From Streptomyces sp. I6 (GTDB lineage: Bacteria; Actinomycetota; Actinomycetes; Streptomycetales; Streptomycetaceae): a stretch of 64,000 nt of DNA. The notes beneath the pieces are model-generated. The model was not told the DNA's origin, did no database searches, and saw nothing but the letters and a program-made list of their open reading frames with translations. The position numbers and the translations under genes were made by a program. The DNA is taken from positions 6,675,501 through 6,739,500 of the forward strand of contig RHDP01000001.1 of the NCBI GenBank assembly GCA_003725745.1, written 5' to 3'. Shown here one piece after another: positions 2,339 through 22,064 of the stretch (position 1 is the stretch's first letter; every line of letters begins with the position of its first letter).

Positions 2339-3484
2339 TCACGGACGCGGCGGCTGCGCCGTCGTCCCCGGCCCCCGGCTGTTGGGGCATGTCACGGCGA
2401 GCGCGGCGATGTCGTCGTCGAGCCGCCCGCCGCTGTAGCGGAGCAGGTCGTGGTGGAGCCGGTCCAGCAGGTCCCGCGGTGCCGCCGGGCCGTTGCGCAG
2501 CATCCACTCCGGCAGCGGGAAGAACGCGCCGGCGCGGTCCCGGGTCTCCGTCACGCCGTCCGTGTAGAGCAGCAGATGATCGCCCGGATCGAAGGGAACG
2601 GTGTCGACGTGGTAGCGGTCCCCGATGAGGGCCGCCAGATTCAGCGGCGGAGACGGGGTGGACGGCTCCAGGACGCGGATCTCACCGCGGTGTACGAGCA
2701 TCGGCGGGGGATGGCCGCAGTTGAGGATCCGGATGGTTCCGCCGTAGCGCGGGATCTCGACGAGCAGGGCGGTGGCGAAGTGCTCGGGGAGGTCCTGGGC
2801 GGGGAACGCGGCGGTGTAGCGGGTGATGCTGGTCTCCAGCCGCCGGGTGATCCCCCTGAGGTCGGGCTGGTCGTACGCGTTCTCCCGGAAGCAGTTGATC
2901 ACCGCCGAGGCGGCCCCGACCGCCGACAGCCCCTTGCCCCGGACATCGCCGATGAGCAGCCGTACGCCGTAGGGGGTGTCGGCCACCTCGTAGAAGTCGC
3001 CTCCGATCCGGGCCTGCTCCTGGGCCGCCAGGTACAGCGACTCGATCTCGACGTCGTTGATGCGGCTCGGCAGCGGGCGCAGCAGGACCTTCTGGGCGGC
3101 GTCGGCGACGAGCCGCACATGGAAGAGTGCCTCCTCCCGCCGGATCCTGACATGGCTCGCGTACCCGGCCGCCAGGGTCACCAGGATGATCGCGGCAGCG
3201 GTGTACGGCGTCCCCAGGTCGGTGTAGAAGAAGCTGAGGCTGACCATGACCACCAGGCAGAACGCCCCCAGCAGGAGTGTGGGGAGCACGGGCCACATGG
3301 CAGCGGCGAGCGCGGGTGCGGCGGGCAGCAGCCTGCTGAAGGCGATCTCCCTCGGTGTGGAGAACGCGAGGGAGGTGATGACGACGGTCAGGATCGCGGG
3401 CGACAGCAGGGCAGCCTGCCACCTGGCTCCGTAGAGACGACGAGGACGCCGCTGCCGACCGAACATGATCACAAAATGCATCAT
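2339..3484 (-). CDS. Membrane-anchored SpoIIE/PP2C phosphatase
   Basis: Integral membrane Ser/Thr phosphatase, likely acting on an anti-sigma-antagonist-type protein; the substrate is not identifiable here. Three or four N-terminal hydrophobic segments (for example AILTVVITSLAF and LLLGAFCLVVMVSLSFFY) are followed by a complete SpoIIE domain: IGGDFYEV, LLIGDVRGKG, LNCGHPPP, LLLYTDGVTE and a terminal LDDDIAALAV. These supply the usual acidic metal ligands. The upstream reading frame is open to 3559, but the MMHFVIM start at 3484 fits the usual short cytoplasmic N-terminus better; no strong Shine-Dalgarno is visible for either. Same strand as the larger phosphatase at 1-2142, 196 bases apart, so they may be co-transcribed. 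Confidence 0.85.
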   Translation of the reverse strand: MMHFVIMFGRQRRPRRLYGARWQAALLSPAILTVVITSLAFSTPREIAFSRLLPAAPALAAAMWPVLPTLLLGAFCLVVMVSLSFFYTDLGTPYTAAAIILVTLAAGYASHVRIRREEALFHVRLVADAAQKVLLRPLPSRINDVEIESLYLAAQEQARIGGDFYEVADTPYGVRLLIGDVRGKGLSAVGAASAVINCFRENAYDQPDLRGITRRLETSITRYTAAFPAQDLPEHFATALLVEIPRYGGTIRILNCGHPPPMLVHRGEIRVLEPSTPSPPLNLAALIGDRYHVDTVPFDPGDHLLLYTDGVTETRDRAGAFFPLPEWMLRNGPAAPRDLLDRLHHDLLRYSGGRLDDDIAALAVTCPNSRGPGTTAQPPRP

Positions 3485-4047
3485 ATCCGGGCAAAGAGGT
3501 GTTGGGGTGGGGCGGTCGGTGTGAGCTGATCGGCCGACGAGCCTGACCGCACCCCGCACCGGGAGGGGGCGTCTCCGGCCGGTGCCGGTGCCGGTGCCGG
3601 TGCCGGGTGCGGGCCGCGGGATGCGCCTCGATCAGTGCGAGTGCGAGTGGTGGGTGGTGGGTGGCGAGCGGTGGGTGCGAGTGGCGGGTGCGGGTGCGGC
3701 GGATGAACGGCCGGGGTGGCCCGGATTCCGTCCGGGGCCGGGGCGGCACCGCGGGGCCGGGGCGGAGCGGCCCGAGCGGCGGACGCGCCGGGGCGTCGAC
3801 CGCCCGTACCCGCGCTGCGCTGACAGGCTCTGGCCCGCTGCGGTGACCTGTTCGTGCCGCACGGTGCCCCGGACGGAGGCGCCGTGGCCGTCGTACCGCG
3901 CGGCTCGACCGGCACCGGGCACCGCTCGCCCGGCGGCCCGGGGCCGGCGGGCGCCGCACCGGGCCGGGGGATCGGCACCACGTGGCGGCCGCAGCGCCGT
4001 TCCTCCGGGGCAGGGCACCGGCGGCCGCAGCGGCGTCGGCCGCGCCG
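3485..4047. other. Intergenic stretch, GGTGCC tandem repeats
   Basis: No gene recognised. It holds four consecutive GGTGCC units at 3581-3604 and, from about 3640 to 3705, a G/T-rich patch of imperfect GGGTGC/GAGTGG words. It separates the operon ending at 4048 from the phosphatase at 2339-3484, which reads the same way, so it should contain the end of one transcript and the promoter of the next. I could not pick either with confidence. Confidence 0.5.
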
Positions 4048-5130
4048 TCAGTCCCTCCGGGCCACCAGGCGGTACGCGTTGCACAGTCCGAGGCGACCGG
4101 CGAAGGGCGCGACCGCCTGATCCAGCAGGGCCGCGCCCGCCAGCACCGGAACGCCCGCCAGCAGCGCGGCGCCCCGCAGCGCACGCCGCGCCGGACCGGC
4201 GGGCGGAAGCCACGGCAGGTCGTCCCGCGGCACGGCCCCTTCCAGCGCCAGCCACACGGCGGCCACCAGATCCACCGGCTCGTGCGCCGTCCGGTGCTGC
4301 TCCGCCAGCACCGTGAATCCCAGGTCCGACAGCGCTCCGCGCAGATTGCCCACCGGCATGAGATGGAGGTGCTGGGGCTGGAGCCAGGGCAGCCACCAGC
4401 GGCCGAGCAGGTGCGCGTACCGGCTCTCCGGGTCCGGCACCTCCACGACGAGCAGCCCGCCCGGCCGCAGCGACGTACGGGCCGCCGCCAGCTCCCGCAG
4501 GGGCTCCGTGCAGTGCTCCAGGTAGTGGAACAGGCTCACCGCGTCGTACTCCCCGGCGAGTTCCCGAGCCAGCTCCGTGAGGCCGCCGCGCAGGCCCCGT
4601 TCCACCCGCCCCCTGCGCTCGGCCACCTCGACCCCCTCGGACCGGTCGAGCCCGTCGAACGCCACCTCGGGCAGGAGCGTCCGGGCCACCTCGCAGAAGT
4701 GCCCGTGCCCGGTCCCCACGTCGAGCCACCGCTTCACCCCGCCGAGATGGGGCCGCAGGGCCTCCGCACGCCGCCGGTAGGACCTGGTGCGCCCGCCGAA
4801 CATCGCGTCCAGCTGCTGCTCGCCGAGCCGGTCGTAGAAGTCGCGGTAGTAGAAGTCGAGCCCCCGGGCGTTCAGCCGCGGGTTCTGGAAGAGATGGCCG
4901 CAGGAGCGGCAGCGGTCGACCCGGAAGCTCCCGGGCTTGTGCTGGAACAGATCCCGGGTCAGCAGATGCCCGCCGATCCGGACCGAGCCGCACCACGGGC
5001 AGCTGTGGCGCAGCGGCTCGAAGTACGCCCGTGGCCCGCCGGAAAGCGCGGCCCCGTACTCCGCCCGCAGTGCCGCCACGGTCGCCCGCCTGGCCCGGCG
5101 TCCTCGGGAGTGCTGCTCTCGGGACGTCAT
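4048..5130 (-). CDS. SAM-dependent methyltransferase with N-terminal zinc-finger-like Cys pairs
   Basis: Class I methyltransferase of 360 residues. The SAM-binding motif LDVGTGHGHF is at 136-145, with a later YDAVSLFHYLEH strand and LRPGGLLVVEVP. Two CxxC pairs (Cys44/Cys47 and Cys74/Cys77) resemble the N-terminal zinc-binding module of sugar and small-molecule C-methyltransferases. The start ATG overlaps the stop of the glycosyltransferase by 4 bases, so it is translationally coupled as the last gene of the six-gene synthase operon. It probably methylates the lipid/polyketide product or its sugar; the acceptor cannot be read from sequence. Confidence 0.85.
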   Translation of the reverse strand: MTSREQHSRGRRARRATVAALRAEYGAALSGGPRAYFEPLRHSCPWCGSVRIGGHLLTRDLFQHKPGSFRVDRCRSCGHLFQNPRLNARGLDFYYRDFYDRLGEQQLDAMFGGRTRSYRRRAEALRPHLGGVKRWLDVGTGHGHFCEVARTLLPEVAFDGLDRSEGVEVAERRGRVERGLRGGLTELARELAGEYDAVSLFHYLEHCTEPLRELAAARTSLRPGGLLVVEVPDPESRYAHLLGRWWLPWLQPQHLHLMPVGNLRGALSDLGFTVLAEQHRTAHEPVDLVAAVWLALEGAVPRDDLPWLPPAGPARRALRGAALLAGVPVLAGAALLDQAVAPFAGRLGLCNAYRLVARRD

Positions 5131-6407
5131 CCGGCCTCCCGGCCCTCGGGGTCCTGACGGTTCTCAGGGATGCGAGGCGTCTCGCTCATTCGTTCGAGGT
5201 GGTCTGCCGCGGCCGAGGCTCCGCCCGCCGCGCGCAGGGCCGATCCCACGGCACGGGCGGCGGCCCGGTGGCCGGGGTCGTACAGCACGGCGTCCACGGC
5301 GGACCCGATACGGGCCGCGGTGGCCCGCCCGAACCGGACGCGGACCCCGGCACCCGCGTCGCAGACCTGTGCGGCGACGACCGGCTGGTCGTCCCGGATC
5401 GGCGCCACGACGAGGGGGACTCCGTGCCCCAGCGCCTCGACCACCGTGTTGTGACCGGCATGGCAGACCACGGCGTCGACGTGCCCCAGCAAGGCGAGCT
5501 GCGGTACGGCGGGGAGGGCGAGCAGATCCCCGTCCGGCCGGACACCACCAGCCCCCGCCCCCGCCTCCGGGGACGCGTCGCATGCCCCGGTGGTGCGGGG
5601 GCGGTCGGCGAGGGCGCCCTCCGGGTCGACGACGACGGCCTGCAACCGGTCCGCGCGGGCCCGCAGGGCCTCGGCGCACGCCCTGAGGAAGCGCCCACCG
5701 GCACCGGTGTTCGCGGTGCCGAGGGTGACCAGTACCGTCGCCCGCCCGGGGTCCAGCCATTCCCAGGGGAAGTCCGCGGGCGAGGGACGGGCGCCCAGCG
5801 AAGGGCCCACCCAGCGGATCGCGTCACCGCCCCGGGCGGGCGGCCCGGTCAGCTCCGGCACGGTGAAAGCCAGCACCAGGCGCGGGGAGAACCGCGGATC
5901 CGCCGCGCCCGCCGGGTCCCCGATGCGCGACCGCAGCTCCCGCAGCAGCCCGTCGATCCACGCGGCGGCCTTGGGCATGCCCGCCAGCGCGTCCGTGAAC
6001 TCGGCCGGCGTCGTCGCCGACGTCGCCCACGGCACTCCGAGCCGCTCCGCCACCAGTGCCCCCGCCGGCGCCTGCTGGTCCGCGACGACCACATCGGGCC
6101 GGAACGCCAGCACCGCATCCCGTACGCCGTCGGCCATCGCGTCCGCGAGCGGCACCAGGAACCGCTCCCACAGGAACCGCAGGGCCTCCGGTCCCCGGAT
6201 GTCCGCCGGCCTGACGGGGCGGTCCGCCTCGGCCCAGGACGCCGGTGAAGGGAAGACGTGCGCGTCCGGCCCGGCGAGACGGTGCACCAGCTCGGGCACC
6301 CCCGCCCAGGCCACCGGATGGCCGCGGGCGGCCAGCTCCGCGGCGACCCCCACCAGCGGATTGACGTGGCCCACGAGCGGGGGCACGACGAACAGGAAGC
6401 GGCTCAC
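5127..6407 (-). CDS. UGT/MGT-family glycosyltransferase
   Basis: GT-B fold glycosyltransferase of 426 residues, expected to move a sugar from a nucleotide donor onto a hydrophobic acceptor. The N-terminus has the family opening FVVPPLVGHVNPLVGVAAELAARGH. The C-terminal donor-binding signature CHAGHNTVVEALGHGVPLVV is near residues 315-335 and is followed by the conserved DQPVVAAQV. TVLVTLGT marks the start of the second Rossmann lobe. It overlaps the upstream hydrolase and the downstream methyltransferase by 4 bases each. Its place in the operon suggests that the synthase product is glycosylated. Confidence 0.9.
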   Translation of the reverse strand: MSRFLFVVPPLVGHVNPLVGVAAELAARGHPVAWAGVPELVHRLAGPDAHVFPSPASWAEADRPVRPADIRGPEALRFLWERFLVPLADAMADGVRDAVLAFRPDVVVADQQAPAGALVAERLGVPWATSATTPAEFTDALAGMPKAAAWIDGLLRELRSRIGDPAGAADPRFSPRLVLAFTVPELTGPPARGGDAIRWVGPSLGARPSPADFPWEWLDPGRATVLVTLGTANTGAGGRFLRACAEALRARADRLQAVVVDPEGALADRPRTTGACDASPEAGAGAGGVRPDGDLLALPAVPQLALLGHVDAVVCHAGHNTVVEALGHGVPLVVAPIRDDQPVVAAQVCDAGAGVRVRFGRATAARIGSAVDAVLYDPGHRAAARAVGSALRAAGGASAAADHLERMSETPRIPENRQDPEGREAG

Positions 6408-7270
6408 GGGGCGTTCACCTCCGCCGGCACGGCCACCGCCCGGCGTCCTCGTCCGGGCCCCCTGCCGGGGCCGCCGGCCGCGGAGTGCTCAGCGATCCAC
6501 GCGAGGACCTCATCGCGTACCCGGCCCGGGGCCTCCACCAGCACCGAGTGCTCATGGCCCGGCACCAGGACCGTCCTGCTGCGCGGCAGCAGGGAGCCCA
6601 GCCACGGGGCCTGTTCGCACAGGTCGGAGTCGCCCCCGTACACGGCGAGCACCGGGCGGTCCAGCAGGCGCAGCGCGTCCTCGGTGACCGGGTCGCAGAC
6701 GGTGAGCTCCTCGGCGATCGCGGTGTCCCGCACCAGCCTGCCCGCGGACCTCGCCAGCCGGGCCGTGCGGCGGCCCCGGTGCGCGGCGATCCAGTCGAGC
6801 GCCTCGCTCTCGTTGACGGTCATCTCGTGCCGCACCCGGTCCAGCAGCCCGGCGATCTTGCGCGCCCAGGAGGCCGTGGCCGGCTCGGACTCGACGACCG
6901 AGATGCTGGCGACCCGGTCCGGGTGGCGCAGGGCGTAGCCGAAGGACACCGTGCCGCCGAACGAGTTGCCGACCAGATGCACCGGGCCGGGGACCTCCAG
7001 ACGGTCCAGCAGTGCACCGAGATCGTCCGTGAACCTTCCGAGGCCGTAGCCGCTGGCCGGTCTCCCGCTGCGGCCGTGTCCCCTGTGGTCGTACATGACG
7101 ACGTCCAGCCCGGCCGCGGCGAACGCGGGGGCCACGGTGAAGTAGTAGCTGGCCAGGCTGTCGGTGAGCAGCCCGTGCAGCAGGACGACGGTCTCCCGGG
7201 CCCTCCGCGCGTCGGGTGGGCCGAGCCGCTGGACGTGGAGGCGGACACCGGCGGTGTCGATGATCGCCAT
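6404..7270 (-). CDS. Alpha/beta-fold hydrolase
   Basis: Cytoplasmic serine hydrolase of 288 residues. It has the oxyanion-loop region VVLLHGLLTD, a YDHRGHGRSG strand and the nucleophile elbow GNSFGG (Ser near residue 102). Probable acid and base residues are in VYGGDSD and GHEHSVL (near 245). It begins 3 bases after the ACP stop and overlaps the glycosyltransferase start by 4. In this operon it most likely acts as a stand-alone thioesterase releasing or editing the acyl chain, because neither multienzyme shows a thioesterase domain. That role is inferred from context only. Confidence 0.85.
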   Translation of the reverse strand: MAIIDTAGVRLHVQRLGPPDARRARETVVLLHGLLTDSLASYYFTVAPAFAAAGLDVVMYDHRGHGRSGRPASGYGLGRFTDDLGALLDRLEVPGPVHLVGNSFGGTVSFGYALRHPDRVASISVVESEPATASWARKIAGLLDRVRHEMTVNESEALDWIAAHRGRRTARLARSAGRLVRDTAIAEELTVCDPVTEDALRLLDRPVLAVYGGDSDLCEQAPWLGSLLPRSRTVLVPGHEHSVLVEAPGRVRDEVLAWIAEHSAAGGPGRGPGRGRRAVAVPAEVNAP

Positions 7271-7273
7271 CGG

Positions 7274-7597
7274 TCAGGACGCTCCCGCGCTCTTCAGGCA
7301 GCTCGCCACGTGCTCGACCAGCCGGCCGACGGTCAGCTCGATGATGTCGTCGAGCTCCATGGAGGCCACGAACTCGGCGAAGTTGACGTCGCGCCCGTAC
7401 CGGGCCTCCAGATGGCCGGCGAGGGTGACCAGGTCGATGCTCTCGAACTCCAGGTCCCTGCCGAACCGGGTCTGCGTTCCGACGTCGGCGCCGTCGAGGC
7501 CGTCGTCCTCGAGAACCTCCGCGATCATGGCCGTGATGTCGGCGAGTATCGCGTCCTCGTCCGCCCCCGGCGGACCCGCCGGATGAGTCGTGGTCAC
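7274..7597 (-). CDS. Discrete acyl carrier protein
   Basis: ACP of 107 residues. The core FGRDLEFESIDLVTLAGHLE contains the expected phosphopantetheine-attachment Ser (near residue 53) in an F-E-S-I-D context rather than the common L-G-x-D-S-L. The C-terminal half (DVNFAEFVASMELDDIIELTVGRL) follows the four-helix ACP pattern. The start is GTG 7597: it overlaps the stop of the preceding synthase as GTGA and has GGAGGACAG just upstream. It could be loaded by the PPTase domain at the C-terminus of the adjacent synthase, and could supply or receive the chain or act with the hydrolase and glycosyltransferase. Confidence 0.9.
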   Translation of the reverse strand: MTTTHPAGPPGADEDAILADITAMIAEVLEDDGLDGADVGTQTRFGRDLEFESIDLVTLAGHLEARYGRDVNFAEFVASMELDDIIELTVGRLVEHVASCLKSAGAS

Positions 7598-10500
7598 GTC
7601 CTGTCCTCCTCCTCGTGTCCGTTCCGGTGCCGTTCCGGTCCCTCGGTCCACGCCACGACGTACGAGCGCGGGGGAAGTCCCGGGGGGTTGCCCACCTCTT
7701 CGCACCTGACCCGGTACGCCCGGACCGGCGTGCCCGGGGCGCCGCGCACCTCGACCGCCAGCCGGTCCCCGGACGCCACCACGACGGCGAAGTCCTTGGG
7801 ACGGCCGTCGAATCCGGTCCCCTCCGCCTTGGCCGCCGCCTCCTTCGCCGCCCAGAAGCGGGTGAACCACAGCGCCGCCGAAGCGCCCGCCCGCCCGTCG
7901 CCGCCCGTGCCGGTCCGGGTGCGGCAGGCCGTCAGCAGCTCGCGCTCACCGGGTGTCAGGGCCGCGGCCAGCGTGGCGCCGGACGGCTCGGCGACCTCCT
8001 CGATGTCGATGCCCGGACCGGTGACCGCGCCCCCGCCCGGGAGCGGCCGGTACGGGCGCACGATCGCCGCGGCCGCCTCGGCCCGGTGGGCGAGGGAGAC
8101 GGCCAGCGGCGGCAGGGTCCGCCCGTGCGTCCCGGTCACCCGGGGGCGTCCCCGCTCGTCGTTGCCCACGCTCAGCTCGGCGGGGAAGACCGGGCCCTCA
8201 CCCCGCTGCCACAGCCACTGCCGTACGGCGTCCTTGGCGGCGATCCGGCCGAGCAGCCACTGCCGGCGGCCGCGTGGCGAGTGCCGTTCGTACGCGGCGC
8301 GTTCGGCGCTTCCGAGCATGTTGCGCATGATCAGGTCGCGTGACGCCAGGTCCGGCCAGCGCTCGTGCACCAGTGCCCAGCCGCCGGGGCGGGCCTCCGA
8401 CAGCGTGTGGCGCTCCGGGAAGCGCTCGACCGGACGCGTGTGCGGGTCGTTGTCGAACCGGCGGTCCTGCCAGCCGGTCAGCTCCGCCCAGACACGGCCG
8501 CCGGTGGTCAGCTGGGCATCCGCCTCCAGGAGGTCCCCGGTGAGCGAGGTGACGCGGACCAGGCACTCCACCGCGCTGCCGGGCCGCGGCGCGGGACCGA
8601 AAAACCGCATCTGCCGCATCCGCACCGGGAACACCACCGTCCGCTCGGTGCCGGTCGCCATGATCCAGTAGCCGAGGACCTGCCCGACGTTGTCCAGCAG
8701 CGCGCCCGGCGCCGGTGGCGTCGTCAGCAGCGCACGGACGTGCCGCCGGCCGATGCCCCGCAGCGCGGTGACCCCCTGGTACGCGGGGCCGTGGAACATC
8801 CAGCGCTCGGAGTACAGCTGGGCGGCCGAGTGGTCCGGCGCGCGTTCGTCGCCGCATCCCGCCGGATCCCAGGGACGCGGGGGCGCGGGGTACCGCGCGG
8901 CGACCTCCACGACGCCGCGGGCGTGCGGCCCGAAGGACACGGCCACCCGCCCCGGGCCCGCGGGGGCGGTGCCGACCGCCACGTCCGCGGGCTCGGCGGC
9001 GGACAGCCACCGGTCGAACCGGGCGTCGTGCACGGCGACCGCGCGCGTGCCCGGCGCACTGCGCTCGGCCGCCTCCATCAGGTGGTGGACGATCGTCGTG
9101 GCCGGGACGACGGGCCATCGGTCGGCCACCTCCGGCCAGTCCGCCCGCTGCCGGAAGAAGCAGTGGTCGAGCAGGTACGGCATCGCCGCGGTGCCCACCC
9201 GGACCGGGTACTCCGAGCGGCCGCCGGGCACCGCGGGGGCCGCCCCGTCCGGCGGTGCGCCCGAGGGCGCGGCCGGACCGGCGCCGGAGGACGGGCGGAC
9301 CGGGCGGGCCCCGGGAGACCGGTGCGAGGGAACGGCGGCGCGGGCGTGCGCCGCGCCGCCGGGCCGGCGAACCGGCGTGGGGCGGCGGCCGGCCGCCTCG
9401 ATGAGTTCGGCGGCGGTGGCCGCCGTCTCCCGCATCAGCGCGTCCAGCTCCGCCAGCGCGGGGAAGCGGTCCGCGGGGCGCCAGGCCCCGGTGCCGGTGC
9501 CGGTGCCGGTCCCGGTGCCGGTTCCGGGCCCGGTTCCGGTGCGCTGTCCGCCGCCGTCGGCAGCGGGCAGCGCCGCGGCCCCGGCGACGGCGTGTCCTGC
9601 CGTACCCGCGCCGGCCGGTCCCGCCGTACCCGCGCCGGCCGGTGGCGGAGCAGCGGTCCCGGGCACGGCCGTCTCGGCCGCGGCGTCCCCGCGCCCGGCC
9701 CGCAGCGACAACCGCAGCCCGGCGAGCACCCCCGGATCCAGCGAGACCAGTCCGCCGCCCAGGTCCAGACGTACCGGAAGCCGCGGCGGGACGGCGCCGG
9801 CCGCGCCACCGCCACCGTGACCGGCCGGCGCGGAGGCGGAGACGGGCCCGGCGGGCGCGCCTCCGGCATCGGCGCGGGTGGCGCGCCCCCGGCGCTCCGG
9901 CGCCCCGGCCGGCGCGGTGCCACGGCGGTCGACCACGCCGGGGTCGACCGCCGCGCCCACCGCCCACAGGGCCACCGCGACACGTCTGAGCTGGGCCAGG
10001 CCCGGCCGGTGCGGCGAGTTGGCGGCGACGGCGAGATGGTCCCGGCCAGCCAGCGTGTCCCCGATGAGCGACGCCAGGGCTCCCGTACCGACCTGGACGA
10101 AGGCCCGGAACCCCGCCGCGTACAGCGCCTCCGTCAACTGGCGGAAGCGCACCGGCTCCAGCAGATGGCGGACGAACAGTTCCCGGACCGCGGCCTCGTC
10201 ACCGGGGAAGGGGGACGCCGTCGTGCCCGACCAGACCGGCACGGTCGGCGGGTGCAGCGCGAAGCGCTCCGCCGCGGCGCGGAACGGCCCCAGCGAGGGC
10301 TCCAGCATGGGCGTGTGGAATCCCGAGCGGAACGGCAGCACGCGGCACAGCACGCCCTGCGTGCGGAAGACGCGCACGAACTCCCCGACCGCGTCCGGCG
10401 GCCCGCAGACCATCGACTGGCTCGGCGCGTTGTCGTGGGACAGGGTCACCGGCAGCCGAAGGGCCGCCAGACCCGCCAGGACCCGGTCCGCCGAAGCCCC

Positions 10501-12726
10501 CACCACGGCGAAGGCGAGGTCCGGCACTTTCACCGAGTCGGGGTCGAGCGAGGCCATGAAGTCGTCGACGGCGCCCTCAGCGTACAGGCCCGCGGCCGCC
10601 ATCGCGGTCCACTCGCCGATGCTGTGCCCGGCCACCGCCTCCGGCACCACGCCCATCCGGCGCAGTGCGGCGTCCAGCAGCCTGCCCACCGCGACCACGC
10701 CCAGCCCGTGCCGGCCGACGTCCCCGACCCGGGCCGCCGCCGCGCCGCTCCGCGGCCCCGAGCCGGCCGGGCCGAAGCGCTCGGCGACGTCGTCGACGCG
10801 CGGTTCGAACTCGGCCTCCAGCCCGGGGAAGACGAAGGCGATCCGGCCCGGCCGCTCCCCGTCGAGCAGCGGGTACGGGGCGAACCACACATCGCTGCGG
10901 CCGTGCCACGCCCGGCCCTTGGCGGCCACCCGGCGGGCGAGCGCCAGCCGCTTCGGTGTCGGGCCGACGATCCCGAGACGCGTCCGCCCGGCGGGTCGCC
11001 CGGCGGGGTCGGGCACCGACGCCAGCACGGTGGAGTCGTCGGCGTCCAGCCGGGCGGCGAGACCCTCCGGTGTACCGGCGCTCAGCAGCAGCACGCGCTC
11101 CGGCTCGGTCACGGCGGTGACCGCCGGCGTCCGGCCCGGACCGCCCGGCACCCCGCCGGAGGCCGCCGGGAACGCGGCCCGCCCTCCCGGCACGGCCGTG
11201 AACGTCCTTACCTCCGGCGCCTGTTCGAGGACGACATGGGCGTTGATCCCGCCGAACCCGAAGGCGTTCACCGCCGCCCGGCGCGGAGTGCCCCCGGGGC
11301 CGGGCTCCCAGGGCGCAGCCTCGGCGAGCGGACGGAAACGCGTGCCCGCGAGCGCGGGATGCGGATCGTCGCAGTGCAGGGTCGGCAGCAGCGTCGCGTG
11401 GTGCACGGCGAGAGCCGCCTTGACCAGCCCGGCGACCCCCGCCGCCGGCATCGCGTGGCCGATCATCGACTTCACCGAGCCGATCACGGCCGTCCGGCCG
11501 CCTTCGCCGCCCTCGCCGCTGCGGCCGCCCCGTCCGTCCGGCGGCCCGAACACCTCCCTCAGCGTGTGCAGTTCGGCCGTGTCACCGGCGGGGGTGGCCG
11601 TGCCGTGCGCCTCCAGCAGGCCGACCGACCCCGGCTCGGCGGGATCCAGCCCTGCCGCCTCCCACGCCTGCCGTACGGCGCGGACCTGGCCGTGCGGATC
11701 GGGGCTGGCCAGTCCGGCCGTACGCCCGTCGCTGCCGACCGCGGTGCCTCTGACGACCGCGTAGATCCGGTCCCCGTCCCGCTCGGCGTCCGCCAGCCGC
11801 TTCAGTACGACCACGCCCGTGCCCTCGCCGATGAGGATGCCGTCCGCGTCCCGGTGGAAGGGGCGGATGCGCTGACTCGGGGACAGGGCCCGCAGCTGCG
11901 AGAAGACGCTCCACAGCGTGATGTCGTGGCAGTGGTGCACACCGCCCGCGAGGACCACGTCGCACCGCCCGGACGCCAGCTCGCCCACCGCCTGGTCCAC
12001 GGCGACGAGCGAGGAGGCGCACGCGGCGTCCACCGTGTAGGCGGGCCCCCGCAGGTCGAGCCGGTTGGCCAGCCGGGAGGCCGCCAGATTGGGGACCAGG
12101 CCGATGGCGTTCTCCGGCCGGTCGGGGCCCAGGCGCTCGGTGAACGCCTCCCGTACCCGGGCGAGCTGCTCGGCCCCGAGGTCCGGCAGCAACTCCCCGA
12201 GCGTGCGCACCAGCTGGGCCGCGGTGCGCACCCGCTGGTCGAGGCGGACCAGCCCCGGCGTCAGATAGCCGCCCCGGCCCAGCACGACGCCGACCCGCTC
12301 CCGGGCCGGCAACCGGTCCCCGCCGCCCGCGTCGGCGATGGCGGAGGCGGCCACCTGGAGCGCTATCAGCTGGTCGGGTTCGGTACCGGAAACCGAGCTG
12401 GGCATGATGCCGAAGCGGGCCACGTCCACGTCCGCCAGCCCGTCCACGAAGCCGCCGCGCCGGCAGTACACCCGGTCCGCCGCGGCAGGCCCGCCCGCCT
12501 CTCCGGGGCGGTAGTACGCGGCGTCCCAGCGGCCCTCGGGCACCTCGCCGATGGCGTCGGCCCCGGCGGCCAGATTGCGCCAGTACGCCGTCAGATCGCG
12601 GGCTCCCGGCAGCAGTACGGCCATTCCCGTGATGGCGACGGGTACACCGCGGCCGCCGTGGCCGGACTCGGCGCGCCCGCCGCCCGCGGTCCGGTCCGCG
12701 CCGGTCCGCGCCCCTCCCTCGGCCAT
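7594..12726 (-). CDS. PUFA-synthase-like multienzyme: KS-AT-DH-PPTase
   Basis: Iterative type I synthase of 1710 residues. KS (about 30-505): active-site DAACASSL near residue 233, then EAHGTATPAGD, SVKSMIGHAMPAAG and NAFGFGGINAHVVLE. AT (about 635-960): GHSIGEW near 702, though the first motif is altered (FVFPGLEAEF instead of the usual GQGSQ). A Gly/Ala/Pro/Thr linker (about 960-1165) includes a GTGTGTGTG run. The DH-like hot-dog region (about 1170-1440) has the enediyne/PUFA-type signature LLDHCFFRQRADWPEVAD and VVPATT. The C-terminal 4'-phosphopantetheinyl transferase has GIDIEEV near 1573 and FWAAKEAAAKAEGTGFDG near 1630. No ACP or KR is visible; those are in the preceding protein. The start lies 1 base after the upstream stop (TGACATG). 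The family resembles the PUFA-like locus annotated in S. coelicolor, from memory only. Confidence 0.88.
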   Translation of the reverse strand: MAEGGARTGADRTAGGGRAESGHGGRGVPVAITGMAVLLPGARDLTAYWRNLAAGADAIGEVPEGRWDAAYYRPGEAGGPAAADRVYCRRGGFVDGLADVDVARFGIMPSSVSGTEPDQLIALQVAASAIADAGGGDRLPARERVGVVLGRGGYLTPGLVRLDQRVRTAAQLVRTLGELLPDLGAEQLARVREAFTERLGPDRPENAIGLVPNLAASRLANRLDLRGPAYTVDAACASSLVAVDQAVGELASGRCDVVLAGGVHHCHDITLWSVFSQLRALSPSQRIRPFHRDADGILIGEGTGVVVLKRLADAERDGDRIYAVVRGTAVGSDGRTAGLASPDPHGQVRAVRQAWEAAGLDPAEPGSVGLLEAHGTATPAGDTAELHTLREVFGPPDGRGGRSGEGGEGGRTAVIGSVKSMIGHAMPAAGVAGLVKAALAVHHATLLPTLHCDDPHPALAGTRFRPLAEAAPWEPGPGGTPRRAAVNAFGFGGINAHVVLEQAPEVRTFTAVPGGRAAFPAASGGVPGGPGRTPAVTAVTEPERVLLLSAGTPEGLAARLDADDSTVLASVPDPAGRPAGRTRLGIVGPTPKRLALARRVAAKGRAWHGRSDVWFAPYPLLDGERPGRIAFVFPGLEAEFEPRVDDVAERFGPAGSGPRSGAAAARVGDVGRHGLGVVAVGRLLDAALRRMGVVPEAVAGHSIGEWTAMAAAGLYAEGAVDDFMASLDPDSVKVPDLAFAVVGASADRVLAGLAALRLPVTLSHDNAPSQSMVCGPPDAVGEFVRVFRTQGVLCRVLPFRSGFHTPMLEPSLGPFRAAAERFALHPPTVPVWSGTTASPFPGDEAAVRELFVRHLLEPVRFRQLTEALYAAGFRAFVQVGTGALASLIGDTLAGRDHLAVAANSPHRPGLAQLRRVAVALWAVGAAVDPGVVDRRGTAPAGAPERRGRATRADAGGAPAGPVSASAPAGHGGGGAAGAVPPRLPVRLDLGGGLVSLDPGVLAGLRLSLRAGRGDAAAETAVPGTAAPPPAGAGTAGPAGAGTAGHAVAGAAALPAADGGGQRTGTGPGTGTGTGTGTGTGAWRPADRFPALAELDALMRETAATAAELIEAAGRRPTPVRRPGGAAHARAAVPSHRSPGARPVRPSSGAGPAAPSGAPPDGAAPAVPGGRSEYPVRVGTAAMPYLLDHCFFRQRADWPEVADRWPVVPATTIVHHLMEAAERSAPGTRAVAVHDARFDRWLSAAEPADVAVGTAPAGPGRVAVSFGPHARGVVEVAARYPAPPRPWDPAGCGDERAPDHSAAQLYSERWMFHGPAYQGVTALRGIGRRHVRALLTTPPAPGALLDNVGQVLGYWIMATGTERTVVFPVRMRQMRFFGPAPRPGSAVECLVRVTSLTGDLLEADAQLTTGGRVWAELTGWQDRRFDNDPHTRPVERFPERHTLSEARPGGWALVHERWPDLASRDLIMRNMLGSAERAAYERHSPRGRRQWLLGRIAAKDAVRQWLWQRGEGPVFPAELSVGNDERGRPRVTGTHGRTLPPLAVSLAHRAEAAAAIVRPYRPLPGGGAVTGPGIDIEEVAEPSGATLAAALTPGERELLTACRTRTGTGGDGRAGASAALWFTRFWAAKEAAAKAEGTGFDGRPKDFAVVVASGDRLAVEVRGAPGTPVRAYRVRCEEVGNPPGLPPRSYVVAWTEGPERHRNGHEEEDRT

Positions 12727-12727
12727 G

Positions 12728-15700
12728 TCACCACTCCGAGGCGGTGTGGACGACCGCCCCGGCCGACGGGCCGCCCCAGGCGAGCTCCCGCAGCAGCGCC
12801 AGCGGCCCCTCCTCGGGGTCGATCAGGGTGATCCCGCGCCTGGCGTAGGCCCGGGCGAGTTCCGGCTCGACCATCCCGGTGTGGAGGCCGCCCGGGGCCC
12901 AGGGGCCCCAGTGGACCGTCAGCGCCCGCCGTCCGGTACGGGCTCCCCACTGCTCGCCCAGGGTCTCCAGGGCGTCGTTGGCCGCCGCGTAGTCCGCCTG
13001 GCCCCGGTTGCCGAGCACCGCGGAGATGCTGCCGAACAGCACCACGAACGAGGGTCCGGCGTCGGGGAGTTCGTCCAGGGCCGAGAGCAGTGCGGCGGCC
13101 CCGCCGACCTTGGTGTGGTACACCCGCTCGAAGGACTCGGCGGACTTCTCGGCGATGAGCCGGTCGTCGATGACCCCCGCCGCGTGGACGACCCCGTCGA
13201 GGCGCCCGTGGTCGGCGTGGATCTCCTTCACCGCCTGGAGCACGGCCGCGGAGTCGCGGCAGTCGGCGCTGCGGTAGCGGACCCGGCTCCCGGCGGCCTC
13301 GAGCGCGGCCAGGGTCGCGGATATCTCCCGCTGGGCGAGGAGCAGTCCGGCCGCCCGGTCGACGTCGGCGGGGGAGCCGTACCCGCCCTGTGCGGCGAGC
13401 ACGCGGCGCAGGGCCGACCGGTCGCGGGCCGCGGCCGTCAGCGGGTCCTCCGGCCCGGCGGGAGCGGGAGTCCTGCCGAGCAGTTCGACGCGGCAACGGG
13501 AGGCGCGGGCGAGCGCGACGGCGCAGGCGGCCGTGATACCCCGGGCGCCACCGGTGAGCAGGACGACGGAGTCCTGGTCGAGTCCCAGCGCGGCCGCTTC
13601 GGCCGCCCCGTCCCCGGCCGGTCCCGCGCCGGTCACCGCCGTCAGCCCCAAGGGCGCCTCGGCCAGCTCCCACCCGTGACGGCCGTCGGCGTCACGCACG
13701 ACGACCGGCGTGCCGCCGGCGGCCCCCAGCTCCTCGACGACCGCGGCGGCGGCGCCGTCCGGCGTGCGCAGCCGGCCGGCCCCGCCGCGCGGGTCGAGGT
13801 CGAGCACGGTCGCCCCGGTGTCCGGGCACTCCCGGGCGATGGTGCGGAAGAGCCCGCGCAGCCCCGCCGAACGCCCGGCCGCCCGGCCCTCCTCGGCGAG
13901 CCGTACGGCGACGAGCCGTGCGGGGCGGCGGGCCAGCGCGGCCTTGACGGCCTGGAAGGCGGCGGGCAGGACCGGCGGTCCGGACGTCGCCAGCGGATCG
14001 AGGAGGACGACGCCGTCGAGCGGGCCGCGGTCCTCCTGCGGCAGCGGTTCCCGCCCGGCGCCGAGGACGACGGGCAGGGCACCGTGCCGCTCCAGCGCCG
14101 CCGCGAGCGCACCCGCGGTCCCGGCGAGCGCGCCGTCCCCGTCGCCGAGCACCGCGAACCGCCGCCCCCGCAGGGCCGTGGGCGCCGGGGCCCCCGGACC
14201 GCCAGCCAGGGGCACCTTCCGCGCCCGGAGGCGTCTCGGCGCCGCGACCAGGGGAGCTGCCGCGCCCCGGGGGGCCTGCGCCGCCCCGGTCGCCCCGGCG
14301 CCGACGGTGTCCGTGGTGTCCGTGGTGCCAGCGGTGCCTGCGGTACCTGTAGTGCCTGCGGTGCCTGCCGTTTCCGAGGGGTCCCTGAAGTCCCCTGCGC
14401 CCGCGGCGTCCCTGACGTTCCCGGTGTTCCCGGCTTCTGCGGTGTCCGCGGTGTCCGCGGCACGGGAGGGGTCCGAGGGATGCGACCGCTCTTCCGGCCC
14501 CACCGGGGGCGGGAACCTGCCGGCCGCCGGATCCGCCCCGCCGGTGTACGCGTCCCCGGTGGCGGCCGGCGCCGCGGCGGGCAGCGGCGACGGCAGGGCC
14601 CCGGGGCCGCGGGCCCGCCGTCCGGCTCGTCCCCGGCACCGGCCAGCAGGGCGCGGATCCTCGCGGCCAGGGTCTCGGCCGTTCTCGCCCGGGACAGCTC
14701 CTCCATCGCGGCGTCGTCCAGCGGGCCGCTGTCCGCCGGCACCGCGCCGGCCGAGGCCAGCCGCCCGGCCAGCTCTCCGACGATCTCGGTCCGCTTGATC
14801 GAGTCGATGCTCAGATCCGCTTCCAGGTCGAGACCGGGCTCGACCATGTCGGCCGGATAGCCCGTGCGTTCACTGATGATGTCCACGATCATGCGCAGCA
14901 CCTCGCCGCCGGACGGCGGCACGACGGTGTCCGCGTCACCGCCCGAGGCGGCCGCCCGCACCGTCCCCGGCTGCGGCCCCGGAACCCTCCCGGCGGTGGT
15001 GCCGGGGTCCCGCGTCTGCGGGCTCCGTGCGGGCGTGGCGGACGCGAACGGGACGCCCGCCGGGGCGGGGAGCGGGTCGCCGGCCGCCCGGCCGCCGAAG
15101 TACGTCAGCAGCACGTCGCGTTGGGCCGCCACCATCTCCCTGCTCGTTCGCAGGAACTCCGCGATCAGCGCGTCCTGGCCGGTCGCGGCGTCCTCGGCCG
15201 CCCAGCCCCCGTGTTGGCTCGTCACAGTCGCCTCCGCGACACGTCGGGCCGGTGCCAGCGCACCGGGCAGGAGTTCACCGGACACGGTGCGGACGAGGTG
15301 CCCGTCGACCGTCCATCCGGCAGGCCGTCCGCGCCCGGCCCGGCTCGGGTCCACCGCGTCTCGTCCGCGGAACATCCATCCGGTGGCGACGGGCAGCCCG
15401 GCCACCGCGAGCCGGGCCAGCGCGTCGAGGAGGTCCGGCAGTCCGCGCCCCGGCCGGGGAGCGCACGCGACGGTCAGGTGCGGCCGGTCCCCGAGGATGT
15501 CGGCCACCAGCCCGGTCAGCGCTCTTCCCGGGCCGCACTCGACGAAGACCCGGGCGCCTGCCGCGTACATCGCCTCGACCTGCTCGGTGAACCGCACCGG
15601 CGCACCGATCTGCGCGGCCAGTTCCGCGCGGATCCCGCCGGGGGAGGCCGGGTAGGGCTCCGCGGTACGGTTCGACCACACCGGGAACTCCGGTGCGCGC

Positions 15701-18700
15701 AAACGGTGTTCGGCCAGTGTCCGGGCGAACCGCTCACCCGCGGCCGCGACCAGCGGGCTGTGGAACGCGCACGCCACCGGCAGGCGCTTCGCCCCGAGCC
15801 CGGCCTCGCGCAGCAGCCGCAGCGCGGTGTCCACCGCCGCGGTGGGACCGGAGACCACCGTCTGCCGCGGTGTGTTGCGGTTGGCCACCACGAGCCCGCG
15901 GTCCGGGAGCCCGCGGTCCGGGAGCCCGCGGTCCGGGAGCCCGCGGTCCGGGAGCCCGCCGTCCGCGCCGTCGCCGTCGTGTCCGCCGCGGTCCCCGCCG
16001 CGACTGCCGGCCGCGCCCAGGATCCGCTCGACGTCCGCCGGGGAGGCGGCCACCGCCGCCATGGCCCCCGGGTCGTCCCCGGCCGCCGCGAGGATCGCGG
16101 CGGCCCGCTCCGAGCTGAGCGTCAGCAGGGTCTCGGGATCCACCGCCCCGGCGGCGCTCAGGGCGACCAGTTCCCCGTAGCTGTGGCCCCCCGCCATGTC
16201 GGGCACCACCCCGGCCCGGTTCAGCAGCGTGTGCGCGGCGAGGCCCACCATGCCGAGCGCCGGCTGCGCGGCCCGGGTGTCGGTGAGGGCGGCGGTGTGG
16301 CGCCCGCTCGCCGCCTCCGTGAACGCGGCCGGGGGATACAGCGCGGACGCCGTGCCGCGGTCGAGCGCCAGCAGGTGCTGCAACTCGGGGAAGGCGCCGA
16401 AGAGGCCGGCGAACATGCCCGTACGCTGGCTGCCCTGCCCGGGGAAGAGGAAGGCGACCCTGCCTCCGCCGCGCCCGCTCCGGGGCCCGCCGTCCGCCGG
16501 GTCCGCCGCGTCCGATCCGCCCGCCGCGCCCGCGGCCGTCACCTCGTCATCGGCGAGGTGGACACCGGCACCCGGATCGTGCTCACCGTCCAGGGCCCGC
16601 CGCAACCGCAGGCGCAGCCCCTCGGGATCCTCCGCCACGACGGCGATCCGCACCGGGCCGCGGTCCGTCTCGGCGCGCCGCGACGCGGCGAGCGCCAGAT
16701 CCCGCAGCCGCCACCCGCCCGTCCCGTCCCCGGCCGGCGACGCGGTCTCCAGCAGCCACTCCGCGGCCCGGCGGGCGGCCGCCGCGTCCGCCCCGCGGAA
16801 CAGGAACAGCTCCGCGGGCCACGCGGCACGCCCGTGCGAGGGCGGCGCCCCGCCGCCGTGAGCGCCGAGCACCACATGGAAGTTGGTGCCTCCGAAGCCG
16901 AACGCGCTCAGGCCCGCCACGCGCCGCTCGGGCGGCGCGGCCCACGGCAGCGCCTCGCGGTGGAAGACGAACGGGCCGCGGTCCTCCTCCCAGGCGGCGT
17001 TGGGCCGCTCCAGGTGCAGGGTGGGCGGCCGTACGCCGGTGTGCAGGGCCATCACCGTCTTGATCAGCCCGGCCAGGCCCGCCGCGCACTTGGTGTGCCC
17101 GATCTGGGACTTGACCGACCCCAGGACGCAGCCGCCCGGGGCGGCGCCCGCCTCCTCGAACACCTCGGTGAGGACGCCCAGTTCGGTTCTATCGCCGACG
17201 ACGGTGCCCGTCCCGTGCGCCTCCACCAGCCCCACCTCGGCGGGCGATGTCCCCGCGTTGCGGTGCGCCCGCTCCAGGGCCCTGCGCTGCCCCTCGGGGC
17301 GCGGCGCCGTCAGCCCGAGGGACCGGCCGTCACTGGAGCTGCCGATGCCCTTGACCACCCCGTACACGCGGTCGCCGTCCCGCTCCGCGTCGGCCAGCCG
17401 CTTCAGCACCACACACGCCACGCCCTCCCCGAGGGTGATCCCGTCGGCCGAGCCGTCGAAGGCCCGGCAGCGGCCCGTGGGGGAGAGGGCGTGCACCGAG
17501 GAGAACAGCAGGTAGTCGTTGATGCCGTTGTGCAGGTCGGCGCCTCCGCACAGCATGATGTCGCTGGTGCCCGCGACCAGTTCCTTGCAGGCGACGTCCA
17601 CCGCCGCCAGGGAGGAGGCGCAGGCCGCGTCGACGGTGAAGTTCGGCCCGCCCAGGTCGAGCCGGTTCGCTATCCGCCCGGAGATCACGTTGGCGAGCAT
17701 CCCGGGGAACGAGTCCTCGGTCAGCGGCGGCAGCTGCTCCTCCAGGCCCTTCGGCACCTCGCCGAAGTACGAAGGGAGCACCGCGCGCAGCGTGGTCGCG
17801 TGGGACAGGTCGCTGCCCGGCTCGGCGCCGAACACCACACCCGTCCGCGTCCGGTCGAAGTCCCGGCCGCCGTCACCGAGTCCCGCGTCGTCCAGCGCCC
17901 GCCGCGCGGCCTCGAGGGCCAGCAGCTGCACGGGCTCGATGCTGCCCAGCGAGGCGGGAGGGATGCCGTAGCGCAGGGCGTCGAAGGGGATCGGCGGCAG
18001 GAACCCGCCCCAGCGGGAGGTGACCGCACCGCCCGCCTCGACGCCGTGCACATCGGGATCCCAGCGGTCGCGGGGCACCTCCCCGACCGAGTCGACCCCG
18101 TCGAGGACGTTGGCCCAGAACGACGCCAGATCGGGTGCGCCCGGGAACATGCAGGCCATGCCGACCACCGCGATGTCCAGGGGGCGCGGCGGTTCCGGTC
18201 GGGTCTGCGCTTCCGCCCGCCCGCCGAGTCCGGTGCGGGACGCCAGTGCGGAGGCCCGTCCGGTGAGGAAGCGCGCCGCACCCTCGGTGACGGCGGAGTG
18301 CAGCCCCGCGAGGGTGGTGGTGGCCGACCGCAGCACCGCCACCTCGCCGGCCATGAACATGCCCTCCGCGAGCTGGCGTTCCTCGCCGACGGTCCCGAGG
18401 CCGCCTTCGGCGGTGCGTTCCACGCCCTTGGCCGCGATCCGCAGCCTGCCGACGTTCAGCCGCTCCAGCCGCTCCCAGACCTCCCGTTCGGCGAGTCCCT
18501 CCGCGCGCATACGGGCCGCCAGGGTGCCGAAAGCGTCGCTGAACGGGCTCGGCACACAGCGTGTGGCATGGCCGGGCGCCGTCTCCAGGAGCGAAGTGCG
18601 CTCAGCCGCGAGCACCCGGCGCTGGAACAGCGGCCGGACGGCGCCGTGGGCGACCGCCTCCTCGGTGAACAGGTACGCCGTGCCCATGAGGGTGCCCACC

Positions 18701-20232
18701 GCGCAGCCGCGCGCGGTCAGCGGGGCGGCGAGTGCGGCCGCCATCGCGGCGGAGCGCTCGTCGTGGATGCCGCCCGCGAGGAAGACCTCGATCCGCCCGG
18801 CGGTGGCCCGTGCCTGCTCGTCCCCCTGCCGGACGAGCCCGTCGAGGAAGTCCTCCAGGACCGCCAGTTGGGCCTCCCAGAGCGGGAAGCTGTTGCGGGG
18901 GCCGACATGGCCGCCGCACTCGGCGCCCTCGAAGACGAACCGGCGGGCACCGGCGTCGAGGAACTGCCGCAGCAGGCCCGGCGAGGGCACGTGGAGGAAC
19001 GCCTTGATCCCGGCCTCCTCCAGCACCCGGGCCTGGGACGGCCGGCCGCCCGCCACGATCGCGTGGGTGGGACCCGCCTCCCGGACCGCGGCAAGCTGGG
19101 CGGCCCTCGTCTCCTCGGGCGCGAAACCCAGGATGCCGACCCCCCAGGGCCTGCCGTGCAGGACCCGGCGCGCCTGCTCCAGCATCGCCGCCGAACGCTC
19201 CGCGCCGGCGAGCGCGAGGGCGATGAAGGGCAGAGCCCCGTCGCCGGCGACGGCGGCGGCGAACTCGGCGCCGTCGCTCACCCGGGTCATCGGGCCCTGG
19301 GCGACCGGCAGCCGGGTCCCCAGGGCCCGGCTCATCGGCGAGCCCGGCCGCAGGGCCCTGACCGCGGCGCCGTCGCCCGCGCCGCCGGTCACGGCGTCCC
19401 GCACGGCACCGGCCACCGCGCGGACCGCGCGGCCGGTGCCTCCCCAGCGCTCGGCGAACAGGGCCGCCAGGTCGGCGTCCTGCCCCACGGGCAGGCCGTC
19501 GGGCGGGGCAGACGCGTCGCCGGTGGCCGCGGACCGCCCGACGGGGCCGCGCCGGCGCAGCGTACGGCGGCCGCCGGACACCACGGTCTGCGAGCCGTCG
19601 GCCGTCCGCAGCAGCGCCGCGACCTCCTCGGGCAGCTGTGACTCGGCCAGCAGCGCGAGCTGGGTGTCCAGCACCACTCCGGCGGCCCCGCCCACCACGG
19701 CGGCCGCCGCGGTGCGCGGCGCGATCCCACCGCAGGCCCACACCGGAACTCCCGGCCCGTCCGCGGCGAGGAGCCGCTGCAGGAGGACGAAGGTGCTCAG
19801 CTCGCCGACGGGGCCGCCGCACTCGCTGCCGCGCGCGATCAGGCCGCCGGCGCCCGCGTCCACGGCCCGGCGGGCCGTCTCCAGCCCGGTGACCTCCACC
19901 AGCACGCGGAGCCGGGTGTCGGTCGGGATCGCGGACAGGTCCCAGGCGGAGTCCGGCGCGAGCACCACCGTGTCCGGACCGCCCGGGGAGCCTGGCTCCG
20001 GGAGGAGTTCTCCGGGGGCGGGCCGGCAGCGCGGGCCGATCCGCACGCCGTAGCGCCCGGGTGACCATCGGCGCACAGCGGCCAGGGCATCCCTCGCCCT
20101 CCGGTCCCCCTGCCCCAGGTCGAGCACTCCGAGCCCCCCGGCGCGGCTCACCGCGGTGGCGAGGCGGGCGTCCGGTTCACCGAAGGGGGTGATTCCGATG
20201 ACCAGGTCCACATTGCGCTCTACCGAATTCAT
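12728..20232 (-). CDS. PUFA-synthase-like multienzyme: NMO-NMO-KS-AT-ACP-KR (one apparent frameshift)
   Basis: About 2,500 residues if one missing base near 14596-14606 is restored. The N-terminus has two nitronate-monooxygenase/PfaD-like TIM barrels in tandem, each with an E-C-G-G motif (RGSECGGPVGE near 134, EGAECGGHVGP near 436); these probably act as enoyl reductase. KS (about 684-1120): DAACASSL near 870, EAHGTGTVVGD, SVKSQIGHTKCAAG. AT (about 1255-1585): FLFPGQGSQ and GGHSYGE near 1349, interrupted by four GLPDR repeats. A single ACP near 1807 has the PUFA-type motif LSIDSIKR. A Pro/Ala/Thr linker follows, then a KR with TGGARG near 2227 and S/Y/N in SISAVLGNRGQADYAAAN near 2410. As read, the KR sits in another frame and could start at GTG 14503 as a separate protein; one protein is likelier given the other undercalls. 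Start ATG 20232 (GGGGA just upstream) is preferred over the upstream in-frame ATG at 20328. Confidence 0.85.
15900..15962 (-). repeat. 15-bp in-frame tandem repeat inside the AT domain
   Basis: Four to five near-identical 15-bp units (GTCCGGGAGCCCGCG on the + strand) encode GLPDR repeats inside the acyltransferase domain of the first synthase, directly before VVANRNTPRQTVVSG. It follows a Gly/Asp-rich tract (GGDRGGHDGDGADGG), so it is a low-complexity loop expansion that keeps the frame. Confidence 0.9.
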
Positions 20233-20354
20233 CATTCCCCGAAAAGGCTTTGGTGTTGCCCGGAGGTTAAATGTCGGCCGATCTGCGGTGCGGGACGTGC
20301 GGGATCTCGCAATACCCGCGGAAATCAATTCATGTCATTCGCGCGGCGGTTCGA

Positions 20355-20395
20355 AAGATAGCGGCAAGTTACTCAAGGGTCAACCATCGGTCAAT
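20355..20395 (-). promoter_or_regulatory. Promoter of the synthase operon with doubled TTGACC
   Basis: On the minus strand, -35 TTGACC (20383-20378), a 17-bp spacer and -10 TATCTT (20360-20355) give an almost ideal vegetative promoter with a leader of about 115 nt before the ATG at 20232. A second TTGACC lies exactly 11 bp upstream (20394-20389). Direct heptamer repeats with 11-bp spacing over the -35 are typical of SARP activator sites, so the pair may be an activator site; this is inference. The surrounding 230 bp are clearly less GC-rich than the rest. Confidence 0.65.
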
Positions 20396-21139: not shown

Positions 21140-21228
21140 GAGGGGCTCACGCGGTGGTGCTCATCCGGAAGGTTTCACGAGGTGGCGCTCATTCCGAGGG
21201 GCTCACGCGGTGGCGTTCATCCGGAAGG
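21140..21228. repeat. Imperfect tandem repeat over the 3' end of the GNAT gene
   Basis: Two 33-bp copies (21140-21172 and 21196-21228, 2 mismatches) with a more degenerate copy between them, giving a period of about 28 bp. The right-hand copy includes the real stop codon of the GNAT gene (21217-21219); the others repeat the same stop-proximal sequence downstream of it. Confidence 0.85.
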
Positions 21229-21687: not shown

Positions 21688-22064
21688 GCCACCGCACGCC
21701 TTTCTGGTTCCGGCGGCTGAGCCGTCCGGGCCGACCTGAGGAGCCGCCACCGGGGGCGACTGCCGATGCGTACACGGTGTCCGGGAGGGCGGGCCGGACG
21801 TCCTCACCGCGTCATGCCCGGCGGACCCGAGCGGGACGGTCGCGCCGGGTGCCTGCGGGGGAGAGGCGTCCGGCCGCCGCTGATGCCGCGAACCCGCGGC
21901 CCCGGCGGGGGTTTCCCCGGCGGCACCCCGGCGCCGCTGGAAAGACCCGAGGGCCGGACCCCCGGTGCGAGGATCCGGCCCCCGGCCCCCGGGCACCGAC
22001 GGCCGGCCCGCGGGGCAAGCCGTCCGGGCCCCGGCCGCACCCGTACCGGGGCGGTGGGGCCTGC

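Follow-up and report, generated by a model that had tools for sequence, protein, structure and literature searches.

In the present study, a window of 64,000 nucleotides from Streptomyces sp. I6 (positions 6675501-6739500 of contig 1 of a 7.05 Mb two-contig genome) was analysed, and attention was given to a six-gene operon in it that encodes two multienzymes (A and B), a discrete acyl carrier protein (ACP), an alpha/beta hydrolase, a UDP-glycosyltransferase-like enzyme (UGT) and a methyltransferase (MT). Judged from its domains, the synthase is a type I secondary lipid synthase that works iteratively, probably of the kind that Shulse and Allen in 2011 called Type M (PMC3098273), and it is fairly likely that the operon makes a very-long-chain, largely saturated and possibly hydroxylated chain, which would then be released, glycosylated and usually methylated. 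The likeness to Type P synthases, the tree of the ketosynthase (KS) domains, the residue states of the acyltransferase (AT) domains and the conservation of the tailoring genes support this reading of a long-chain lipid. Synthases of this kind have been known since 2011; here, it is seen to be accompanied by the same four genes for carrier and tailoring proteins in many Streptomyces and in Frankia. In the accessible part of the open-access literature, no product was found for the six-gene kind, and the conserved gene set makes the product question directly testable. Moreover, the residue states offer clues to a division of labour, with a malonyl-loading AT in A, a long-chain-type AT in B, and one competent and one degraded NMO (nitronate monooxygenase-type) domain.

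All six genes lie on the minus strand, from approximately 20235 down to 4048 (Table 1), and their domain content is essentially as described in a first-pass annotation made from the sequence alone. Read directly, genes A and B are separated by a 1-base gap and the discrete ACP and hydrolase genes by a 3-base gap, while 4-base overlaps join gene B to the ACP gene (start GTG 7597), the hydrolase gene to the UGT gene and the UGT gene to the MT gene, in keeping with the operon that had been proposed. The operon start, which had been set at 20395, has to be moved, as gene A likely starts at ATG 20235 (or 20232), with a promoter-like site upstream at 20383-20355. Relatives were found with protein B, and the best 80 of 495 confirmed stretches were used (79 distinct); gene order was counted in 66 relatives, those in which 5 kb or more of sequence lies beyond B; the other 13 of the 79 loci had too little room and were dropped. 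In the 66, the genes downstream of B include the ACP (66), hydrolase (64), UGT (64) and MT (57, the gene being missing in the other 9), and all four follow in the order ACP, hydrolase, UGT, MT in 55 of the 66, so that the arrangement is not a matter of chance.

By domain order and alignment, the closest match in architecture is the Type P synthase of Beijerinckia. In Beijerinckia indica (L161), NMO (two stretches), KS, AT, ACP (two stretches) and ketoreductase (KR) are found in one protein, with a PS-DH dehydratase (DH) and a phosphopantetheinyl transferase (PPTase) in another, and the same two-protein architecture is observed in Methylosinus (L162). Between the intact protein A of Streptomyces sp. 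NBC_01243 (L163) and the Beijerinckia synthase, identity is 44% over 1659 aligned positions, and the C-terminus of B in the window shows 27% identity to the Beijerinckia DH-PPTase (579 positions, E 7e-51) and 28% to that of Methylosinus. The KS-AT-DH-PPTase order previously described for B is borne out, although the DH, for which there was no Pfam match at E 0.001, was assigned by aligning B with the PS-DH proteins from Beijerinckia and Methylosinus.

The motifs reported earlier were recovered, DAACASS in both KS domains and DSIKR in the ACP of A. An enoyl reductase of NMO type had also been claimed, and two NMO domains are indeed present, but the histidine of the GGH motif, which is important for NMO catalysis, is kept in NMO2 only. 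NMO2 carries GGH in 76 of 76 rows; in NMO1, the same 76 rows read GGR (70), GGP (4, the window among them), GGH (1) and GGV (1). NMO2 is likely the enoyl reductase. In all 76 rows, the AT of A retains both malonyl determinants, Gln (S-28) and Arg (S+25), and this pair is also kept in the control ATs (Type P, modular and pfaA-like). The AT of B, by comparison, has Gly (78 of 80 rows) or Ala (2) at S-28 and Phe (75), Leu (4) or Val (1) at S+25, never Gln or Arg; its GQGxQ motif is replaced by GLE-x-E/D in most rows, and the GHSIGE seen in the window is conserved across the alignment. PfaB, which transfers long chains, is described as being without the same malonyl-binding Gln/Arg pair (PMC12895367, accessible part), and the AT of B resembles it in having lost both residues, neither of which is kept in any of the 80 rows.

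A quick tree of 49 KS domains, in which the pfaA-like labels were assigned from domain context, grouped the 11 KS domains of A with two Type P KS and one Rhodobacteraceae row (Shimodaira-Hasegawa-like approximate likelihood ratio test, SH-aLRT, 92), and this group then joins six pfaA-like KS (SH-aLRT 93). The 11 KS domains of B form a clade of their own (SH-aLRT 100) outside the modular polyketide synthases (PKS), and the position of this clade in the tree is not settled. The tree program warned of long branches, chiefly chain length factor (CLF), FabF and type II sequences, a single pfaC KS from Azospirillum and the row from Rhodobacteraceae. The first-pass annotation had held both KS domains to be of the polyunsaturated fatty acid (PUFA) or secondary-lipid type; this stands for A, while for B only the place outside the modular type was recovered. 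The same annotation had named a place among the modular PKS as the outcome that would speak against it, and for A, whose KS falls outside the modular PKS group of its own genome, this outcome was not observed. The best NCBIfam model is TIGR02813 (PfaA) for A, with 651 bits against a cut-off of 1010.1, and narrowly so for B (439 versus 426 bits), again below the cut-off. The closest solved-structure match of the KS is 7zma.

For the tailoring enzymes, structure models were compared. The MT model (mean predicted local distance difference test score, pLDDT, 91.2) matches sugar and prenyl or lipid methyltransferases, with template modelling (TM) scores of 0.38-0.49 among the matches listed, and the hydrolase model (mean pLDDT 88.6) matches general esterases; as modelled, neither fold match fixes a substrate. 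Among 67 relatives, the hydrolase nucleophile reads as Ser in 57 and as Cys in 9 (motif GNCFGG; L016, L017, L020, L022, L060, L064, L066, L067 and L068), with 1 unread. That the product is a glycosylated, methylated lipid, as earlier suggested, can fairly be inferred.

Herein, we propose a route for the synthesis of this lipid, the steps of which, together with how long and how saturated the chain would be, are deduced from domains, residue states and gene order that were read directly. The PPTase of B would prime the ACPs, the AT of A would load malonyl units and the KS of A would extend the chain, which the KR of A, the DH of B and NMO2 would reduce, NMO1 perhaps being structural. The AT of B, without the malonyl-binding residues, may handle the long acyl chain and pass it to the KS of B and/or the discrete ACP. 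The hydrolase would then release or transacylate the long chain, the UGT would add a sugar, and the MT would methylate the sugar or the lipid.

A promoter motif may also belong to the operon. In 44 of 75 relatives, the motif TTGAC-N6-GTAA was observed in the 400 bases that precede gene A; elsewhere it occurs only twice in 3,457,524 bases (both strands counted), and TTGAC and GTAA at a spacing of 5 or 7 gave zero occurrences upstream of A in the same relatives. The strict motif is not present in the other 31 of the 75 relatives, including that of Frankia (L071), and two Actinoplanes-type loci carry TT[TA]AC-N6-GTAACC. The rows with the motif are kin, 26 of the 45 (window counted) being less than 85% alike. 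A longer promoter pattern occurs once in the genome of Streptomyces sp. I6, with none for the reversed control. A likeness to known regulator boxes was considered: the motif may resemble GlnR half-sites, and its spacing differs by one base from that of the BldD box consensus. TTGAC-N6-GTAA is predicted to be a cluster-specific promoter motif.

Table 1. Positions of the operon features in the window.
Feature	Position	Strand	Remark
Promoter-like site	20355..20383	-	TTGACC-17-TATCTT with conserved spacer TGAGTAA
Gene A (synthase 1), first part	14614..20235	-	NMO1, NMO2, KS, AT, ACP; frame stopping at 13642
NMO1	19336..20208	-	FabK/PfaD-like, GGH histidine lost
NMO2	18256..19338	-	FabK/PfaD-like, GGH kept
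KS of A	16861..18189	-	DAACASS
AT of A	15421..16473	-	limits approximate; malonyl determinants present
ACP of A	14641..14910	-	DSIKR
Coding-frame switch	14580..14660 (~14600)	.	between ACP and KR
Gene A, second part	12728..14503	-	other frame; linker and KR (KR 12896-13567)
Gene B (synthase 2)	7594..12726	-	
KS of B	11221-12642	-	
AT of B	~10084-10701	-	GHSIGE kept
DH of B	~8407-9177	-	
PPTase of B	7750-8013	-	
Discrete acyl carrier protein	7274..7597	-	107 aa
Alpha/beta hydrolase	6404..7270	-	GNSFGG nucleophile motif
GT1 glycosyltransferase	5127..6407	-	UGT/MGT-like
Class I S-adenosylmethionine methyltransferase (MT)	4048..5130	-	N-terminal CxxC..CxxC motif

Several points weigh against the long-chain lipid reading. 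The clade of A and Type P reaches an SH-aLRT of 92, under 95; B has an extra KS-AT fused before its DH-PPTase, absent in the Beijerinckia protein; the link to ArsA and ArsD of Azotobacter vinelandii runs via Beijerinckia, which Shulse and Allen classed with them (PMC3098273, accessible part); the AT of B, unlike bacterial PfaB with its GYSxG motif (PMC12895367, accessible part), keeps GHSxG; the nearest solved relatives of the UGT and MT are weak (best E 6e-7 for the MT) and give no acceptor or donor for either enzyme. In addition, the window copy of gene A is frame-broken as given. The domains NMO-NMO-KS-AT-ACP-KR that had been assigned to A are all present, but not in a single open frame, since NMO, NMO, KS, AT and ACP lie in the frame ending at 13642 and KR in that of the open reading frame (ORF) 14503..12728, and the switch near 14600 is seen both by third-position GC content and by a frame model. 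A programmed frame break was rejected, as ACP and KR share one ORF in 75 of 79 relatives and all six domains of A do so in 70 of 79; the four exceptions for ACP and KR are two loci at contig ends (L014 and L061) and L029 and Frankia torreyi CpI1 (L071), in both of which the ACP was not found and the KR is in a different frame. On the plasmid of Streptomyces sp. NBC_01243, intact gene A is annotated as a single 2313-aa gene. Likely, the break is an assembly error or a private mutation. An indel error in the assembly was inferred because the genome completeness is low (87.42% in 2 contigs versus 93-100% for the compared same-genus genomes of 1-2 contigs) and one KS on contig 2 is likewise split across frames; neither is proof, and the break may yet be a real mutation. 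That the locus is instead a decayed, non-functional copy would agree with a break that, L029 and L071 apart, is private to the window, but we consider this unlikely, as the other five genes showed neither a stop nor a frame break, the promoter motif is intact, and the completeness and the second split KS point, short of proof, to indel errors.

Other products can be weighed against the same evidence. An ordinary modular PKS cluster would account for the type I KS-AT domains, and yet it is almost certainly the wrong explanation, given the fusions of DH-PPTase and of NMO and the tree, in which seven modular KS from this genome make up a group (SH-aLRT 98) that contains neither A nor B. A true PUFA synthase, with a polyunsaturated product that would then be glycosylated, had been suggested earlier and is consistent with the joint clade of the KS of A with pfaA-like and Type P KS, with TIGR02813 as the best model and with the PfaD-type reductase fold of the NMO domains. 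However, this product is very unlikely, because B has no KS-CLF didomain, the window and L163 have a single ACP, no match to a FabA-type dehydratase (DH2) was found, the NMO is fused in two copies, and the nearest architecture is Type P (ars) rather than Types A/B or L. A bolder suggestion is that the operon is a route to macrocyclic glycolipids of the fattiviracin and cycloviracin kind, in which hydroxylated C22-28 chains would receive glucose from the UGT and the MT would make an O-methyl sugar. The AT and KS of B would take over the long chain from A, the hydrolase would act as a transacylase joining two glycosylated monomers, and expression would be switched by the operon's own operator-like promoter motif. 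Fattiviracins of Streptomyces consist of C22-28 or C22-24 trihydroxy fatty acids and glucose, and the sugars of cycloviracin are methoxylated at C2 (PMC4365757, accessible part). The gene set matches this chemistry, and both the absence of the MT from 9 of 66 relatives and the presence of a hydrolase Cys in 9 of 67, a residue compatible with acyl transfer, would fit. We regard it as doubtful all the same, since a single UGT would have several glucoses to attach, the positions of the hydroxyls do not show in a sequence, and the match is partly post hoc. No gene assignment for fattiviracin/cycloviracin-type antiviral glycolipids was found in the accessible open-access literature; if true, the suggestion would assign genes to this family. 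The very-long-chain glycosylated lipid proposed above remains the preferred reading.

Regarding distribution, the KS-AT part of B, which served as the query of the Streptomyces survey in place of full-length B, has a match of at least 58% identity in about a third of the Streptomyces genomes sampled (42 of 121, Streptomyces sp. I6 itself counted), and seven further genomes show matches at 36-49% only. A class-level search gave matches in 81 of 246 genomes at a looser limit. Twenty genomes of one family (f20) are among the matches listed, and 18 of these 20 match B at at least 53% identity; f20 genomes without a match may sit among the 145 genomes outside the matches listed. The family was taken as Frankiaceae because 14 of the 20 pass the nifH cut-off and the KS of one of its genomes (G172) adjoins that of Frankia torreyi CpI1 in the tree. 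Several f20 genomes have two copies, and A, B, ACP, hydrolase, UGT and MT are all present in Frankia torreyi CpI1. A link to nitrogen fixation was considered, since the cluster is present in Frankia, and rejected: the f20 genomes G230, G240, G260, G326 and G370, in which no nifH passed the cut-off, match B as well, at 58-63%, and no nif-specific pattern was seen. In a Frankiaceae-like copy (L173:11527-12234), the same ACP stretch of A is matched twice, which suggests ACPs in tandem. In Streptomyces sp. NBC_01243, the whole cluster lies on a linear plasmid of MOBP type, and an IS3 transposase is annotated immediately downstream of it. A wider cluster was not apparent, no flanking family being found in more than 14 of 65 regions (window counted) and none of the listed families in the window. 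Around the operon, a gene for a SpoIIE-type phosphatase lies downstream (window 2339-3559), followed at 1-1983 by three coding segments of the minus strand that abut one another, each in a different frame and two with PAS matches, which are perhaps an indel-broken gene or several genes. On the other side is a pyruvate carboxylase-like gene (26206-29628), and between it and the operon are genes with fasciclin (25041-25676), TerB (24151-24744), NUDIX (22452-23036) and GNAT (within 21217-23103) domains.

Compared with known systems, the operon shares with the PUFA synthases (PfaABCDE, Types A/B) and with Type L of S. coelicolor the PfaA-type KS, AT, ACP (DSIKR) and KR and the PfaD-type NMO. Unlike Types A/B, it has one DSIKR in the window, and one ACP stretch in L163, in place of a tandem array, and no KS-CLF-DH2 protein, B being KS-AT-DH-PPTase without a FabA-type match; unlike these synthases and Type L, the NMO is fused and doubled and the PPTase is fused. 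Type L of S. coelicolor comprises a fused pfaBC (KS-CLF-DH2-AT) and a separate 5' pfaD (PMC3098273, accessible part), neither of which is seen in the window, and SCO0126-0127 is called an eicosapentaenoic acid locus (PMC5932044, accessible part). The PUFA-like locus of S. coelicolor mentioned in the first-pass annotation is SCO0126-0127, which, as Type L, is of a different architecture. A further pfaA-like synthase (L164), carried by a plasmid of Streptomyces, has salicylate synthase and associated genes as neighbours, a setting similar to that of metallophore clusters (PMC13291983, accessible part). The combination of a PUFA-like synthase and a glycosyltransferase recalls the Hgl systems (Type F), but the gene set is different, HglC being KS-CLF-AT and the Hgl type being described as without DH and with a glycolipid product (PMC3098273, accessible part).

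Closer likenesses are those to Types P and M. The Type P synthases, which make the C22-26 alkyl chains of phenolic lipids in Azotobacter (PMC3098273, accessible part), share with the operon the NMO-NMO-KS-AT-ACP-KR protein, in the window only across the frame break, and the DH-PPTase unit. Unlike in Type P, no type III PKS match was found among the six gene products, which include a UGT, an MT, a hydrolase and a discrete ACP instead. The glycosyltransferase close by in Beijerinckia is of the GT4 type, a different family from that of the UGT. Type M is reported from Frankia, Streptomyces avermitilis, Actinosynnema and Renibacterium, with an uncharacterised product and a PPTase beside the synthase (PMC3098273, accessible part). 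A UGT, MT and hydrolase are not described for it in the accessible part of that source, which gives the motif P1a x(G/D)xP for the Type M PPTase and does not list the PUFA-type P0 hRxhLS for M (PMC3098273). In the PPTase of the window, RGRP fits P1a and MRNMLG does not fit hRxhLS (a single sequence, read by eye). Identity with Type M is likely, in a comparison by host distribution and PPTase features. Like Type M, the operon has the PPTase beside the synthase and is present in Streptomyces and Frankia, the latter through Frankia torreyi CpI1 and 18 of the 20 listed f20 genomes.

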